Below, piece after piece: positions 21,967 to 30,461 of a stretch of 30,461 nucleotides of DNA. The stretch is from a virus. The DNA lies in the IMG/VR virus record IMGVR_UViG_3300025889_000614, positions 1-30,461 of that record; one strand, written 5' to 3'. How positions within the stretch are numbered: position 1 is the first letter of the stretch; each line of letters starts with the position of its first letter. Made by a program: the position numbers and the translations under genes. The notes beneath the pieces are model-generated. The model made no database searches, had not been told where the DNA came from, and saw only the letters and a program-made list of their open reading frames with translations.

Positions 21967-21992
21967 AAAGGGTCTTTTTAGACCCTTTTTTT
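21967..21992 (+). terminator. Intrinsic terminator closing the late operon
   Basis: AAAGGGTCT (21967-21975) pairs with AGACCCTTT (21980-21988) around a TTTT loop and runs into T residues. It lies between the convergent genes ending at 21932 (+) and 21991 (-). The T-tract serves the plus strand; the minus-strand side has no U-run, so it should act mainly on late rightward transcripts. Confidence 0.85.
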
Positions 21993-22296
21993 ATTTGGAC
22001 AAGTCAACACCATATCTCATTAGAGAACGTCTCTCAAATTGCAAATAAACGGGGTTCTCGGGGTTGTATAGCTCATAACCCATACTCCTCAAAAGTAGTT
22101 CAGCATTTTGTTTGGTTATTTCATCCTCACAAATCTCCAATGCGCTTGTCTTTTGTTTTATGGCGTCACGTGTTTGTTTTCTTCTTATTGACAGACACTC
22201 TTTGCATGTATAGGTATAATATCCAGTGGTTACACTAAAGTTGAAGTGATTCATTGTTTTTTCAATCTTACATTTGTTACAGATATGTGTGTCCAT
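21991..22296 (-). CDS. Zinc-finger protein (two CxxC pairs), the only leftward gene
   Basis: I take the ATG at 22296, which gives 101 aa and starts just before the first Cys pair. An upstream in-frame start exists at 22404 but would add a basic, Phe/Ile/Lys-rich extension from A+T-rich leader DNA. Residues C6/C9 (HICNKC) and C31/C34 (TCKEC) form a zinc ribbon like the one that precedes HNH nuclease domains in phages, but no HNH motif follows. Instead there is a helical, acidic C-terminus (ITKQNAELLLRSMGYELYNP). It may be a DNA-binding regulator or a nuclease remnant. Leftward orientation against an otherwise rightward genome suggests a regulatory or lately acquired gene. Confidence 0.75.
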   Translation of the reverse strand: MDTHICNKCKIEKTMNHFNFSVTTGYYTYTCKECLSIRRKQTRDAIKQKTSALEICEDEITKQNAELLLRSMGYELYNPENPVYLQFERRSLMRYGVDLSK

Positions 22297-24150: not shown

Positions 24151-24180
24151 TTGACAATCCGTATTTTGTTCGTATAATTG
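24151..24180 (+). promoter_or_regulatory. Promoter with TTGACA and TATAATTG boxes
   Basis: TTGACA (24151-24156) is followed after 16 bp by TATAAT and the overlapping TATAATTG (24173-24180), which is one base from the Bacteroidota TAnnTTTG box at its usual spacing. The first 26 bases recur exactly at 26406-26431. It drives the gene at 24204 after a short leader. The match to the general sigma-70 consensus is unusually good for a Bacteroidota phage. Confidence 0.7.
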
Positions 24181-24787: not shown

Positions 24788-24813
24788 AGGTGGGGGTAAC
24801 ACCCCACCTTTTA
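24788..24813 (+). terminator. Intrinsic terminator
   Basis: AGGTGGGG (24788-24795) pairs with CCCCACCT (24802-24809) around GTAACA and is followed by TTTAT. It ends the transcript of the genes at 24204 and 24472. Confidence 0.85.
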
Positions 24814-24969: not shown

Positions 24970-25000
24970 TTTGCCAGTAATTTTATGTGTTGTATCTTTG
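24970..25000 (+). promoter_or_regulatory. Bacteroidota-type promoter (TTTG / TATCTTTG)
   Basis: TTTG (24970-24973) lies 19 bp before TATCTTTG (24993-25000). The -33 side reads TTTTGCCAG, a variant of the TTTGGCAG used by the following promoters. The ATG at 25022 is about 21 bp beyond the -7 box, giving a short leader. The -7 box and leader start are shared with the promoter at 26078. Confidence 0.85.
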
Positions 25001-25021
25001 AACCATAATAAAACAGAAACT

Positions 25022-25180
25022 ATGAAAAACTTTGTAAAAATCATCATCGCACTTGGTAAGAAATACGGACAGCACAGCCCCGAACAGATGCGAGCTTGGA
25101 CTTGTGAAACAGAACAAGAATTGAACCAATACGCTGAAATCTTCTTGGGTTCTAACTATGTAAAAAATCTTTCAAAATAA
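25022..25180 (+). CDS. Unknown 52-aa protein
   Basis: The ATG at 25022 is fixed by the promoter at 24970; the longer TTG-started frame would begin inside that promoter's -33 box. The product is helical and soluble, with KIIIALGKKYGQHSPEQMRA and ETEQELNQYAEIFLG. Its last four residues (NLSK) and the DNA after them are identical to the end of the gene at 25892-26077, in a 28-bp exact repeat. Function unknown; the shared gene end points to a cassette boundary. Confidence 0.7.
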   Translation: MKNFVKIIIALGKKYGQHSPEQMRAWTCETEQELNQYAEIFLGSNYVKNLSK

Positions 25181-25189
25181 TTTTGGCAG
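25162..25189 (+). repeat. 28-bp direct repeat, copy 1 (gene end plus next -33 box)
   Basis: Identical to 26059-26086. It covers the codons for the shared NLSK-stop and the TTTTGGCAG box of the next promoter. It joins a gene end to a promoter, the expected product of shuffling gene-plus-promoter cassettes. Confidence 0.85.
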
Positions 25190-25213
25190 AGTAAAAAATC
25201 CTCCTTACCTTTG
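25181..25213 (+). promoter_or_regulatory. Bacteroidota-type promoter; leaderless start predicted
   Basis: TTTTGGCAG (25181-25189) with TTTG at 25182-25185, 20 bp to TACCTTTG (25206-25213). Only AACT separates the -7 box from the ATG at 25218, so the predicted transcription start falls on or beside the start codon. Confidence 0.88.
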
Positions 25214-25224
25214 AACTATGAAAA
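25182..25224 (+). repeat. 43-bp direct repeat, copy 1 (promoter plus start codon)
   Basis: Identical to 25472-25514. It runs from the -33 box through the start codon into the first Lys codons. The genes that follow the two copies are otherwise unrelated. Confidence 0.9.
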
Positions 25225-25484
25225 ACGAAAAATATCAACACGAAATTATTCCTATGAGTGATGTAAAATGTTTTACTGACTTTGGTTGGTATGATTCTTT
25301 ATGTAAAGAAAGAACACTCTACGAAGGTTTATCTTATTTGGTGTGTAATCTCAAAGGTGATGATTACAACACTTATTTTGAGATGTGGGACGAAGAGGGA
25401 TTCATTGGTAATTACTCTATTCCCAACACAGAAAATGGAAAATATATTGTATCAAAATATTTTCAAGAAAGTTTGGCAGAGTAA
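25218..25484 (+). CDS. Unknown acidic 88-aa protein
   Basis: This starts at the ATG placed four bases after the -7 box of the promoter at 25181. The protein is acidic and rich in Tyr, Glu and Asp (FTDFGWYDSLCKERTLYEGLSY, DDYNTYFEMWDEEGFIGNYS). An acidic, aromatic surface like this is compatible with a DNA-mimic or protein-inhibitor role but proves neither. Its last codons carry the -33 box of the next promoter. No family recognised. Confidence 0.7.
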   Translation: MKNEKYQHEIIPMSDVKCFTDFGWYDSLCKERTLYEGLSYLVCNLKGDDYNTYFEMWDEEGFIGNYSIPNTENGKYIVSKYFQESLAE

Positions 25485-25503
25485 AAAATCCTCCTTACCT
25501 TTG
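25472..25503 (+). promoter_or_regulatory. Bacteroidota-type promoter inside the previous gene end; leaderless start predicted
   Basis: TTTGGCAG (25472-25479) lies within the last codons of the gene ending at 25484. TACCTTTG (25496-25503) follows, and the ATG at 25508 comes after AACT. Sequence is identical to the promoter at 25181 through the start codon. Confidence 0.88.
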
Positions 25504-25514
25504 AACTATGAAAA
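25472..25514 (+). repeat. 43-bp direct repeat, copy 2
   Basis: Identical to 25182-25224. The first 13 bases double as the end of the coding region finishing at 25484, so promoter and coding sequence overlap. Confidence 0.9.
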
Positions 25515-25849
25515 CAACAGAGATTTTGGACGAAGTATCCTACAACTATGACGGGTTACACATAATCGGTTGCACCGCAGCAGGTGTGTATGTAAAACCC
25601 ACAGAAGAGATGTTATACCTTCTTTTCACACGAACTATGTGGAATAAGATGCAGAAAGCTTGGTTAGACCAAAAGATGGACTTTTGCACACGTTATGAAC
25701 ACTTCTGCGGGTGGGGTTGTATCCACAGCAAAGTTCAATACGTTTTTGATGGAACTTACGCAGTCCATAATGACGACTTTACAACTGATATGGTAGATGT
25801 TCCCGTGTATAAAGTATTGGACATCTTGGTTGATATGGAACACGGATAA
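25508..25849 (+). CDS. Unknown 113-aa protein
   Basis: This follows the second copy of the 43-bp promoter repeat. The sequence has a beta-rich start (LHIIGCTAAGVYVKPTEEML), a helix with MWNKMQKAWLDQKMDF, then CTRYEHFCGWGCIHSKVQYVF with three Cys and a His that could bind metal, and an acidic helix at the end (VDVPVYKVLDILVDMEHG). It has no membrane segment. Not recognised; likely an early host-takeover or host-interaction protein by position only. Confidence 0.7.
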   Translation: MKTTEILDEVSYNYDGLHIIGCTAAGVYVKPTEEMLYLLFTRTMWNKMQKAWLDQKMDFCTRYEHFCGWGCIHSKVQYVFDGTYAVHNDDFTTDMVDVPVYKVLDILVDMEHG

Positions 25850-25855
25850 AAAAAG

Positions 25856-25887
25856 TTTGGCAGTAACAAGAATAATCATTACCTTTG
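25856..25887 (+). promoter_or_regulatory. Bacteroidota-type promoter; leaderless start predicted
   Basis: TTTGGCAG (25856-25863) lies 20 bp, measured from TTTG, before TACCTTTG (25880-25887), then AACT and the ATG at 25892. The boxes match the promoters at 25181 and 25472, but the spacer differs, showing which bases are conserved. Confidence 0.87.
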
Positions 25888-25891
25888 AACT

Positions 25892-26077
25892 ATGAAAACT
25901 GGAAAAACAGCAAAAGAAAATCTTTACGATATTTTTGATTTTACCTTGATAAACAGTCGTGAATCTCACCCCGCTCGTTTATGGGAAATAATCTGTTGGC
26001 AAAATAATATAGATGAAGATGATGAAAGAATTGGTGAAATATATGATGATTGGTATGAAAAAAATCTTTCAAAATAA
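25892..26077 (+). CDS. Unknown acidic 61-aa protein
   Basis: This is a short, acidic protein (ARLWEIICWQNNIDEDDERI, then GEIYDDWYEKNLSK). The N-terminus is basic (MKTGKTAKENL). The start follows the -7 box by four bases. The gene end shares a 28-bp exact repeat with the gene ending at 25180. The strongly acidic second half is common in small early phage inhibitors, but there is no diagnostic motif. Confidence 0.7.
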   Translation: MKTGKTAKENLYDIFDFTLINSRESHPARLWEIICWQNNIDEDDERIGEIYDDWYEKNLSK

Positions 26078-26086
26078 TTTTGGCAG
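26059..26086 (+). repeat. 28-bp direct repeat, copy 2
   Basis: Identical to 25162-25189, covering the end of the 25892 gene and the -33 box of the promoter at 26078. Confidence 0.85.
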
Positions 26087-26109
26087 TATCAAAATAATCA
26101 GTATCTTTG
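26078..26109 (+). promoter_or_regulatory. Bacteroidota-type promoter (TTTTGGCAG / TATCTTTG)
   Basis: TTTTGGCAG (26078-26086) then TATCTTTG (26102-26109). The -7 box and the bases after it match the promoter at 24970, with a leader of about 20 nt before the ATG at 26133. Confidence 0.87.
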
Positions 26110-26132
26110 AACCATAATAAAATATAAACACA

Positions 26133-26405: not shown

Positions 26406-26435
26406 TTGACAATCCGTATTTTGTTCGTATATTTA
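26406..26435 (+). promoter_or_regulatory. Promoter, second copy of the TTGACA type
   Basis: TTGACA (26406-26411), 16 bp, then TATATTTA (26428-26435). The first 26 bases equal 24151-24176. Only the -7 side differs, TATAATTG there and TATATTTA here, so the pair is a natural comparison of -7 strength. Confidence 0.7.
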
Positions 26436-26455: not shown

Positions 26456-26752
26456 ATGAAAAAAGCAACAAAAAAACAAGTATTGGAGCATTCAGTAGCA
26501 ATGAGCCAAAAGTATTTTGACTTGGTATGGTATGCTCGTAGTGGACACAACGCTCACTTACCTTACGTAGAAGAAGAAAGAAAGAAGATTGAGAAGTTAT
26601 ACTCAAACGAGGTAAACGAATTATCTGGTGATGAAGCAGATTGGACACACGGATTCAACTCTGGAGCTTTGGCAGCATTTAGATTTATCCTAACCATAAT
26701 GGAAGAAGGTATTGAAGAGGCATACCAAGATTTTCCCGAATTAGACAGCTAA
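26456..26752 (+). CDS. Unknown 98-aa helical protein
   Basis: This starts after a 20-base A-rich leader. The product is mainly helical (KKQVLEHSVAMSQKYFDLVW, YVEEERKKIEKLYSNEVNEL, GALAAFRFILTIMEEGIEEA) with a basic N-terminus and acidic C-terminus. The segment DEADWTHGFNSGALAAFRFI, a short His/Gly-containing turn before a helix, is seen in small phage proteins of unknown role. The next gene follows after 16 bases and is probably co-transcribed. Confidence 0.7.
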   Translation: MKKATKKQVLEHSVAMSQKYFDLVWYARSGHNAHLPYVEEERKKIEKLYSNEVNELSGDEADWTHGFNSGALAAFRFILTIMEEGIEEAYQDFPELDS

Positions 26753-27968: not shown

Positions 27969-28478
27969 ATGACCTTTTTTGAGTGGATAAATTCAAATCA
28001 TAGAGAAGCAATGGATATGGTAAGGAAAATATGTGTTGATAAAGATGCTCAAGATGATTTGTTTCAATGTGTGGTTGAACAGTTATTGGAAAAACCAAAA
28101 AAGATAAATGAAATACCAGATAGTCAAAAGATGTATTACTTTATTAGGGTGGTTAGAAATAACTACAACTCAAAGACAAGTCCCTATCACAAGGTGTATA
28201 GAAAGAACCAGAACCATCATACACCCCTTTTAGAAGAGATTACAGAGGACTTTGCTGATGAGGAGTATAAGGAGACATTACCCGACATAAAATGGGTTTA
28301 TAAACAACTTGAGGAGTTTGATTGGTTTGATAGAGATTTATTCGTTCTATGGTTAGAAATGGGGACACTAACGTCCGTATCAAAACAAACACAGATACCC
28401 CTCAACTCGGTAGGGAGATACATAAATAAAACAAAACAAAAACTAAAAGAATTATGGCAAAGGGAGCTTGGAGATTGA
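27969..28478 (+). CDS. ECF-like sigma factor
   Basis: This 169-aa protein has two helical domains joined by an acidic linker. The N-terminal part (about residues 18-75: KDAQDDLFQCVVEQLLEKPK, then MYYFIRVVRNNYNSKTS) fits sigma region 2, where a 'DDl.Q.v...l' core-binding helix is followed by a DNA-melting helix. The C-terminal part (about 118-166: DLFVLWLEMGTLTSVSKQTQIPLNSVGRYINKTKQKLKEL) fits the region 4 helix-turn-helix that reads the -35 box. It heads the packaging operon, overlapping the next gene by 25 bases, right after a terminator. A phage sigma factor here would switch host RNA polymerase to late promoters. I cannot show its target from this gene alone. Confidence 0.75.
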   Translation: MTFFEWINSNHREAMDMVRKICVDKDAQDDLFQCVVEQLLEKPKKINEIPDSQKMYYFIRVVRNNYNSKTSPYHKVYRKNQNHHTPLLEEITEDFADEEYKETLPDIKWVYKQLEEFDWFDRDLFVLWLEMGTLTSVSKQTQIPLNSVGRYINKTKQKLKELWQRELGD

Positions 28479-29369: not shown

Positions 29370-30382
29370 TTATAGAAGGAGATTGTTTTGAACTAATAAA
29401 AACCTTACCAGATGAGAGTGTTGATTTGGTAATCACCAGTCCCCCTTATGCGGACATCGTCAATTATGGTAAGAATATTTCAATCCAAAAACCAACAGAA
29501 TATGTGGATTGGATATTACCCCTATTCAACGAAATACAGAGAGTTCTAAAACCAAGTGGTAGCTTCATACTCAACATCAACGATAATTGCTCTAATGGGT
29601 TGAGAAACCCCTATATCTTTGAACTGATACATCGCTCACAGAAGGAAACCAAACTAAAGTTCTATGACACTTACATTTGGCATAAGTTGAACGGAATACC
29701 AAATGGTTCACCCAAAAGATTTAGAAACACCACAGAGTTTATATTCCATTTTGTCAAGAACCAAAAACAACTCAAGTTCTATATGGATAGGGTGATGAAG
29801 GAACAAAAAGAAATAACCAAAAAAAGGTTGAAATCACCTATGGTATTGAAATCACATCAACAGATTATAGAGGGGATTAGAGGTAGTGAAACTACAATAA
29901 ACACCCAACCAGACAAAGTCCGTCCCGATAATGTATTTAGATTCCCAACAGCGGCAACACAAAGGGATAATACCATTAGACACCCCGCACCATACCACAA
30001 AGAATTACCCGCATATTTCATCAACTTACTAACAGATGAAGGTGATGTTGTTCTTGACCCTTTTAGTGGAATAGGAACGACTGGATTACCTTGTAAGGAA
30101 ATGAATAGAAGTTACATAGGGTTTGAGTTGAACCCCAAATATGCGGAGTTTAGTATCAACAGAATAAACGGGGATGAACTTGATGAATATTTGGTATGTC
30201 AATATGATATGGATGATAATTTCATCGCATCTTTTGATGGTATAACAACTGCGGCTAATTCAATCAACTATTCAACCCCCCATAATATTATGATGTGTTA
30301 TAGGGGATTTAGAACAGAAGCAGGGGGATACAAATGGAAAATGGAATTGAAACCAAATAACCAAATAAAACTTGATTTATGA
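29366..30382 (+). CDS. DNA methyltransferase, beta class, with C-terminal NUMOD/IENR1-like domain (allele 2, complete)
   Basis: This 338-aa enzyme would transfer a methyl group from S-adenosylmethionine to an amino group in DNA. Catalytic motif IV is SPPY (residues 25-28, in DLVITSPPYADI), the form common in N4-cytosine enzymes though not exclusive to them. The binding motif I DPFSGIGTTGL (from D231) comes after it, the order of the beta class. HPAPYHKELP near residue 209 is motif X-like. The last ~50 residues (IASFDGITTAANSIN, GFRTEAGGYKWK) resemble the DNA-binding repeat of intron endonucleases, an unusual partner for a methyltransferase. The gene lies between terS and terL, in line with protection of DNA from host restriction or marking of packaging DNA. 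No cognate restriction enzyme is seen. Its core differs strongly from the allele at 3-545. Confidence 0.9.
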   Translation: MIIEGDCFELIKTLPDESVDLVITSPPYADIVNYGKNISIQKPTEYVDWILPLFNEIQRVLKPSGSFILNINDNCSNGLRNPYIFELIHRSQKETKLKFYDTYIWHKLNGIPNGSPKRFRNTTEFIFHFVKNQKQLKFYMDRVMKEQKEITKKRLKSPMVLKSHQQIIEGIRGSETTINTQPDKVRPDNVFRFPTAATQRDNTIRHPAPYHKELPAYFINLLTDEGDVVLDPFSGIGTTGLPCKEMNRSYIGFELNPKYAEFSINRINGDELDEYLVCQYDMDDNFIASFDGITTAANSINYSTPHNIMMCYRGFRTEAGGYKWKMELKPNNQIKLDL

Positions 30383-30461
30383 TTGTAGAAGTTGAAGGTT
30401 TTACCCCCTATCCAAAACAAGCCGAGTTCATTACAAAGATTGAGCAGGAACACGTCAAATA
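29832..30461. repeat. Right copy of the contig-end overlap
   Basis: Counterpart of 1-624 with exact edges and diverged middle, 6 bp longer than the left copy. It includes the start of terL from 30379. Confidence 0.85.
30379..30461 (+). CDS. terL: Terminase large subunit, first codons (overlap copy, 3' cut by window)
   Basis: The ATG overlaps the methyltransferase stop exactly as at 542, and all 83 bases equal 542-624. It is the beginning of the same gene seen after circular closure, not a second terminase. Confidence 0.9.
   Translation, partial: MIVEVEGFTPYPKQAEFITKIEQEHVK

Follow-up and report, generated by a model that had tools for sequence, protein, structure and literature searches.

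Mobile regulatory cassettes known as promoter early stem-loops (PeSLs) have reportedly been described in T4-type phages, in work attributed to Arbiol in 2010 and Comeau in 2014. The T4 genome is far larger than 30 kb. Lambdoid phages carry morons, extra genes that possess their own promoter and their own terminators and lie between conserved genes. According to the available portions of two articles, PeSLs are early promoter units located between small variable genes and are reported to mediate shuffling (PMC4503421, PMC3950731). The available text of the latter also describes, for the haloarchaeal virus HGTV-1, a promoter-like motif that precedes most of the genes in one arm and is likened to PeSLs and suggested to act as a gene shuffler (PMC3950731). 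In cluster K mycobacteriophages, short repeats termed SAS and ESAS precede many small genes, ESAS being accompanied by a putative promoter, and the accessible parts of the reports present them as possible recombination targets (PMC3203893, PMC11373665).

This study analyzes a row of five small genes (A–E) in a 30,461-base virus record, referred to as the window (the whole stretch of DNA analyzed), in which family scans matched terminase, portal, protease, tape-measure and endolysin. The array belongs to a tailed phage with promoters of the Bacteroidota form and extends from an intrinsic terminator to a conserved anchor gene (Table 1). Its appearance is that of a site at which phages exchange small genes. 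Specifically, we consider it quite probable that the region is a gene-exchange array in which recombination between alike promoters adds, removes and reorders units, a reading based on promoter-like sequences, genes that recur in other contexts, seams located at promoters above expectation, and stop and start codons that abut the promoter. No published description of this array was found in the literature searched, which covered few subscription papers. Regarding the genome as a whole, positions 520–624 and 30357–30461 are identical, revealing overlapping contig ends (spotted through the relative L018); the longest exact repeat of the whole window is 112 bp, and bases 1–624 are 82% like 29832–30461. 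A circular or permuted genome of ~29.8 kb is probable, and the methyltransferase fragment found at the window head is probably a variant copy.

Table 1 Features of the array and its flanks, in window coordinates; L numbers denote relatives, and percentages denote identity to their homologs.
Feature	Position	Strand	Remarks
Intrinsic terminator, strong	24788–24809	+	8-bp stem with 6 GC pairs, followed by TTTATTT; immediately 5' of array
Gene X, 46 aa	24828–24968	+	Stops 1 nt short of promoter 1
Promoter P1	24970–25000	+	TTTGCCAG-N15-TATCTTTG
Gene A, 52 aa	25022–25180	+	85% in L099 and L114, partial 72% in L021; neighbors differ
28-bp exact repeat, copy 1	25162–25189	+	Gene A end plus -33 box
Promoter P2	25182–25213	+	TTTG-N-TAnnTTTG match
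43-bp exact repeat	25182–25224 and 25472–25514	+	Copies 1 and 2
Gene B, 88 aa	25218–25484	+	Starts 4 nt past -7 box; tail SLAE*, stop in P3; 91% in L147
Promoter P3	25472–25503	+	TTTG-N-TAnnTTTG match; stop codon of gene B inside
Gene C, 113 aa	25508–25849	+	Starts 4 nt past -7 box; 45% in L199, L204; neighbors differ
Promoter P4	25856–25887	+	TTTG-N-TAnnTTTG match
Gene D, 61 aa	25892–26077	+	Starts 4 nt past -7 box; 87% protein, 91% DNA in L098
28-bp exact repeat, copy 2	26059–26086	+	Gene D end plus -33 box
Promoter P5	26079–26109	+	TTTG-N-TAnnTTTG match
Gene E, 88 aa	26133–26399	+	68% in L114, directly before gene A there
Promoter-like element, second type	26406–26433	+	TTGACA-16-TATATT; near-copy of element at 24151
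98-aa gene	26456–26752	+	57% homolog in L157, a cassette with TTTGGCAG promoter
Anchor gene, conserved, 70 aa	26769–26981	+	Downstream of array in several relatives

The five putative promoters share one form, TTTG[G/C]CAG-N15/16-TA[C/T]CTTTGAAC. Exact TA[C/T]CTTTGAA is present in all five and exact TTTGGCAG in four, P1 carrying TTTGCCAG instead. The first-pass annotation had proposed five promoters with shared boxes, and all were recovered on the + strand, with two of its coordinates (25181 and 26078) off by one. The window contains exactly five occurrences of the strict joint promoter pattern and 300 first-order Markov shuffles contain none, while the loose -33/-7 pattern alone is non-significant (7 in the window versus 3.9 expected, with 9 of 100 shuffles reaching 7). 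The exact repeats of 43 and 28 bp that had also been reported lie at the same places, and the longest repeat in the array region, at 43 bp, compares with at most 16 bp in 500 shuffles of that region. Among the coding bodies of A–E, no mutual similarity was detected at E<=1e-3, in agreement with the earlier view that they are unrelated. The accompanying claim that the gene ends are the same applies to A and D, which share their last codons (KNLSK*) plus promoter and are otherwise unrelated, and fails elsewhere, gene B stopping inside promoter 3. Within the KNLSK* repeat (the 28-bp copies in Table 1), TTTCAAAATAAT resembles TATCAAAATAAT inside promoter P5, a likeness that is perhaps the scar of an older join.

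The array promoters match the elements of the Bacteroidota housekeeping sigma factor (sigma-ABfr), for which the available part of the source gives a -33 TTTG, a -7 TAHHTTTG and a transcription start usually 4–5 nt past the -7 element (PMC6847099). When the promoter pattern was searched in GTDB genomes, Bacteroidota names, as read from titles, appeared in 70 of the 80 matches listed, the remainder comprising nine in other groups and one without a name. The pattern occurred 20 times in ~28 Mb from six whole genomes, themselves reached through pattern matches and hence picked for having one, compared with five close matches within 1.2 kb of the window. In loci fetched with the anchor gene, a procedure blind to promoters, a rightly spaced TTTG was present at 74 of 158 -7 elements before ORFs, 23 of the 74 being TTTGGCAG. 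The corresponding figure for bacterial loci was 42 of 239 after exclusion of the search pattern's own matches, which also biases the bacterial TTTGGCAG count of 0 downward.

As far as the accessible accounts describe T4 PeSLs, the window array resembles them in that small variable genes of a hypervariable region are repeatedly preceded by a promoter, and in shuffling at the motif between related phages, which is seen here in sequence. It differs in that its junctions contain no stem-loop or terminator, its promoters are of the Bacteroidota -33/-7 type, and the promoter adjoins or overlaps stop and start codons; at 30 kb, the array phage is also far smaller than T4. A terminator search of the + strand from 24970 to 26130 detected none inside the array, no local inverted repeat was found at the array junctions, and an Rfam search returned no known RNA. 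A conserved promoter-like motif repeated before genes is common to the array and HGTV-1, although the latter, in the text available, combines an archaeal TATA-like box with an inverted repeat, and neither is present in the array. Similarly, the repeated short sequence with a putative promoter before small genes recalls SAS/ESAS. In the portions of those reports at hand, however, SAS is located at the translation start, ESAS includes a 17-bp imperfect inverted repeat upstream of the 13-bp SAS that is absent from the array, and an ESAS tends to stay with its gene family, whereas the array genes change company. Morons, like the array genes, are extra genes with their own promoter amid conserved genes, but the array lacks internal terminators and its units are arrayed. 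The array is best described as PeSL-like shuffling minus the stem-loop, plus Bacteroidota-type promoters that double as stop codons.

Relatives were sought using the terminase, genes A and D, a related terminase, the anchor gene and the promoter pattern (two scans). The first broad promoter scan returned 15 contigs, several of them apparently chance matches without arrays, and served as a lead only; the second supplied relatives from the matches listed, and the last viral promoter scan yielded only the contigs of L155 and L157, already found. A DNA search of the array region against 50,697 phage records gave no match, nor did protein queries with gene C or with either form of the anchor gene (from the window and from L157), leaving no usable isolate.

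All five genes recur in other uncultured phages with other genes alongside, and no neighboring gene was shared at these recurrences among the cases examined. DNA homology covers only 25850–26080 for gene D (91%, L098), 25215–25503 for gene B (91%, L147) and 25001–25232 for gene A (85%, L099). Gene E has a second homolog in L194 at 32%, and its order relative to gene A in L114 is reversed in the window, where A comes first and E last. A rearrangement is seen between the close relatives L155 and L157, whose flanks are 99% identical, with a 189-aa gene before the array and the anchor gene after it. Between these flanks, a 93-aa gene (98% identical) follows a two-gene unit in L155 and precedes that same unit in L157, and other units occur in only one of the two arrays. 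Their alignment places the seams in promoters; at one seam the two sequences agree in TTTGGCAG and again beyond the spacer, but not in the spacer itself. Likewise, L098, whose terminase is 99% identical to that of L104 (the contig of L101), has long flanks 90–95% alike to those of L104, with unrelated genes in between. No promoter is recognizable upstream of A in L099, upstream of E in L114 or downstream of D in L098, which counts against exchange. The proposal of interchangeable gene-plus-promoter units made in the first-pass annotation is nonetheless supported by genes that recur with other neighbors and by homology blocks that end at promoters above expectation, and a search of the relatives for the opposing arrangement, the same genes in the same order with no breakpoints at the repeats, did not overturn it.

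An upstream ORF ends within -60 to +45 of 182 of 260 viral promoters, and in the same frame at exactly +13 in 33 and +19 in 22, counted from the first T of TTTG. Under stricter settings, stops at exactly +13 or +19 occur at 48 of 248 viral promoters versus 1 of 124 in bacterial loci, and an ATG follows the -7 box by 3–5 nt in 38 of 248 versus 1 of 124, a placement also seen for window genes B, C and D; both promoter sets were drawn partly or wholly from pattern scans, and repeat contig copies, such as L016 (L098), L202 (L157), L220 (L159) and L240 (L150), were excluded. The resulting tails are mostly -LAD, -LAE, -LAEQN or alike, with 57 distinct upstream proteins tabulated. Given the start distances of B, C and D and the transcription start rule in the available part of the source (PMC6847099), leaderless messages are predicted for these genes if the rule holds. 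Judged from sequence, promoter, stop codon and seam appear to be combined in one element, the -33 region often closing the upstream frame.

To quantify the seams, homology ends were counted inside 51 hand-picked array regions, using blocks with at least 80 coding bases and dropping the near-duplicate pair L107/L108. Promoters accounted for 83 of 133 ends in all classes (32.5 expected), 59 of 81 at an identity of at least 75% (20.8 expected), 33 of 42 at at least 85% (10.8 expected) and 23 of 32 at at least 90% (8.4 expected), and the observed value was reached by 0 of 20,000 Monte Carlo draws in every class, where the null is a uniform position, the rows are non-independent, and alignments that run across a promoter conserved for its function become longer. 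For neighbor conservation, 31 hand-picked contigs were compared, the near-duplicate pair L159/L162 being dropped; homologous promoter-linked genes kept their neighbors in 4 of 183 comparisons. In contig pairs with both classes, neighbors were kept in 4 of 149 comparisons of promoter-linked genes and in 200 of 455 comparisons of other genes (Fisher p ~2e-25, dependence uncorrected), and at an identity of at least 60% over all pairs it was 3 of 70 versus 181 of 417; mechanical ORF calling touches both classes in these counts, short genes more.

The 22 of 81 ends at an identity of at least 75% that lie off promoters count against exchange at promoters and favor an alternative in which exchange is real while the promoters are passive, with random (illegitimate) recombination followed by selective removal of gene-breaking or promoterless joins. 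This alternative is a genuine possibility, although a somewhat doubtful one. Exact strings common to junction pairs of one genome have medians of 9–22 nt, short for homologous recombination, but reach 43 bp in the window and 60 bp in L155, and strings of 28–60 bp at some junction pairs would favor homologous joining. With long maxima and such medians, homologous and short-homology joining are both possible.

Like integron arrays, the locus consists of small orphan-gene cassettes arranged head-to-tail in one orientation and parted by small, promoter-sized repeats, which would suit a recombinase that mobilizes units through one defined position in the repeat. Such a site-specific mechanism is nevertheless very unlikely. 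Folded as single-stranded DNA, none of the five junctions was significant (z -0.52 to 1.01) or offered a folded attC-like site, and apparent seams are spread from ~7 nt ahead of the -33 box to ~28 nt beyond the -7 box. No integrase was seen among 36 distinct window ORFs scanned (25 of 36 families listed in one scan), and integron cassettes are mostly promoterless, whereas here each unit has a promoter.

Assembly chimaeras, in which short-read assemblers joined different phages at repeated promoters, deserve equally little credence. Repeats as long as those noted above could invite such joins, every relative is a metagenomic contig, and the window's own junctions are known from one assembly. 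Against this, a join of co-occurring genomes would give near-identity, while the shared cassettes have diverged (A 85%, B 91%, D 91%); the same array stretches appear across different sample numbers (L103/L104, L159/L162 and L107/L108); and most shared junction strings are shorter than 45 bp, below the length of typical reads. Least credible is conservation of promoters by function only, with genes diverging beyond recognition and exchange absent: the genes are tiny and orphan, and conserved promoters by themselves would put homology ends near promoters, but genes at 85–98% identity lie beside unrelated genes in changed order, and because divergence cannot reorder genes, the L155/L157 rearrangement contradicts this explanation unless it is an artefact.

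Under the preferred reading of exchange by recombination between alike promoters, each unit would comprise a strong host-type promoter and one, sometimes two, small orphan genes. Recombination at these promoters, whether inside one genome or between phages that infect a cell together, could add, remove or reorder units without breaking expression. Since all promoters are alike, unit exchange would leave expression intact and place the new gene directly behind a working promoter, and the -33 region would often close the upstream frame with its built-in stop codon. The promoters presumably fire early and separately, and joining would proceed by general or short-homology recombination, with a site-specific enzyme not involved. 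More tentatively, and with appreciable doubt, the repeat may be a three-in-one adaptor under selection, serving as host promoter, as a stop giving a -LA[D/E]*-like tail and as seam, for a gene pool common to uncultured Bacteroidota-type phages that use no dedicated recombinase.

The flanks of the array contain further elements. Homologs of gene X adjoin the anchor gene in L112, L127, L128, L129, L139 and L140, whereas the window gene X sits across the array from it. The elements at 24151–24178 and 26406–26433 are near-copies of TTGACA-16-TATA[A/T]T, matching 12/12 and 11/12 of the sigma-70 consensus; they differ from the other window promoters, which have the Bacteroidota form, or alternatively may be degenerate -33/-7 elements. 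The 98-aa gene has a TTGACA-type promoter-like element here and a TTTGGCAG promoter in L157, so that a gene family can change promoter type. A 169-aa protein encoded at 27969–28478 resembles, by eye, a small sigma factor with a helix-turn-helix near the C-terminus; a PHROG scan of it gave no match, and it could serve the TTGACA-type promoters. On the strand opposite to the array (-), positions 21991–22296 encode an Endonuclease VII/HNH-like protein (phrog_1035, E 2.9e-07).

For ten proteins from the array region of the window, family scans revealed nothing above noise. Among 93 cassette proteins scanned, ten Pfam and two PHROG families each match one member at the limits used, mostly by chance in all probability, a GNAT acetyltransferase-like protein excepted; PADLOC and NCBIfam matches were weak, and no defense or counter-defense family was clearly matched. 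On the basis of these comparisons, nearly all cassette proteins appear to be orphans. The predicted structure of gene C has a mean pLDDT of 83, from an alignment of three sequences. A single-stranded-DNA-binding fold was considered for it, but no match was better than E>1e-3 and all TM-scores were below 0.5, and no claim is made. The cassette genes may serve host takeover or counter-defense, in keeping with the anti-host role proposed in the first-pass annotation, for or against which the family scans do not speak.

The locus is probably an array for gene exchange among phages of a group that yielded no isolate in the records searched, and order changes are visible between close genomes. The tandem TTTGGCAG-N-TAHMTTTG signature can be used to locate many small orphan genes traded among phages, and these genes constitute a natural library for counter-defense screens. 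With the array, the idea that a promoter doubles as stop codon and seam also becomes open to experiment.
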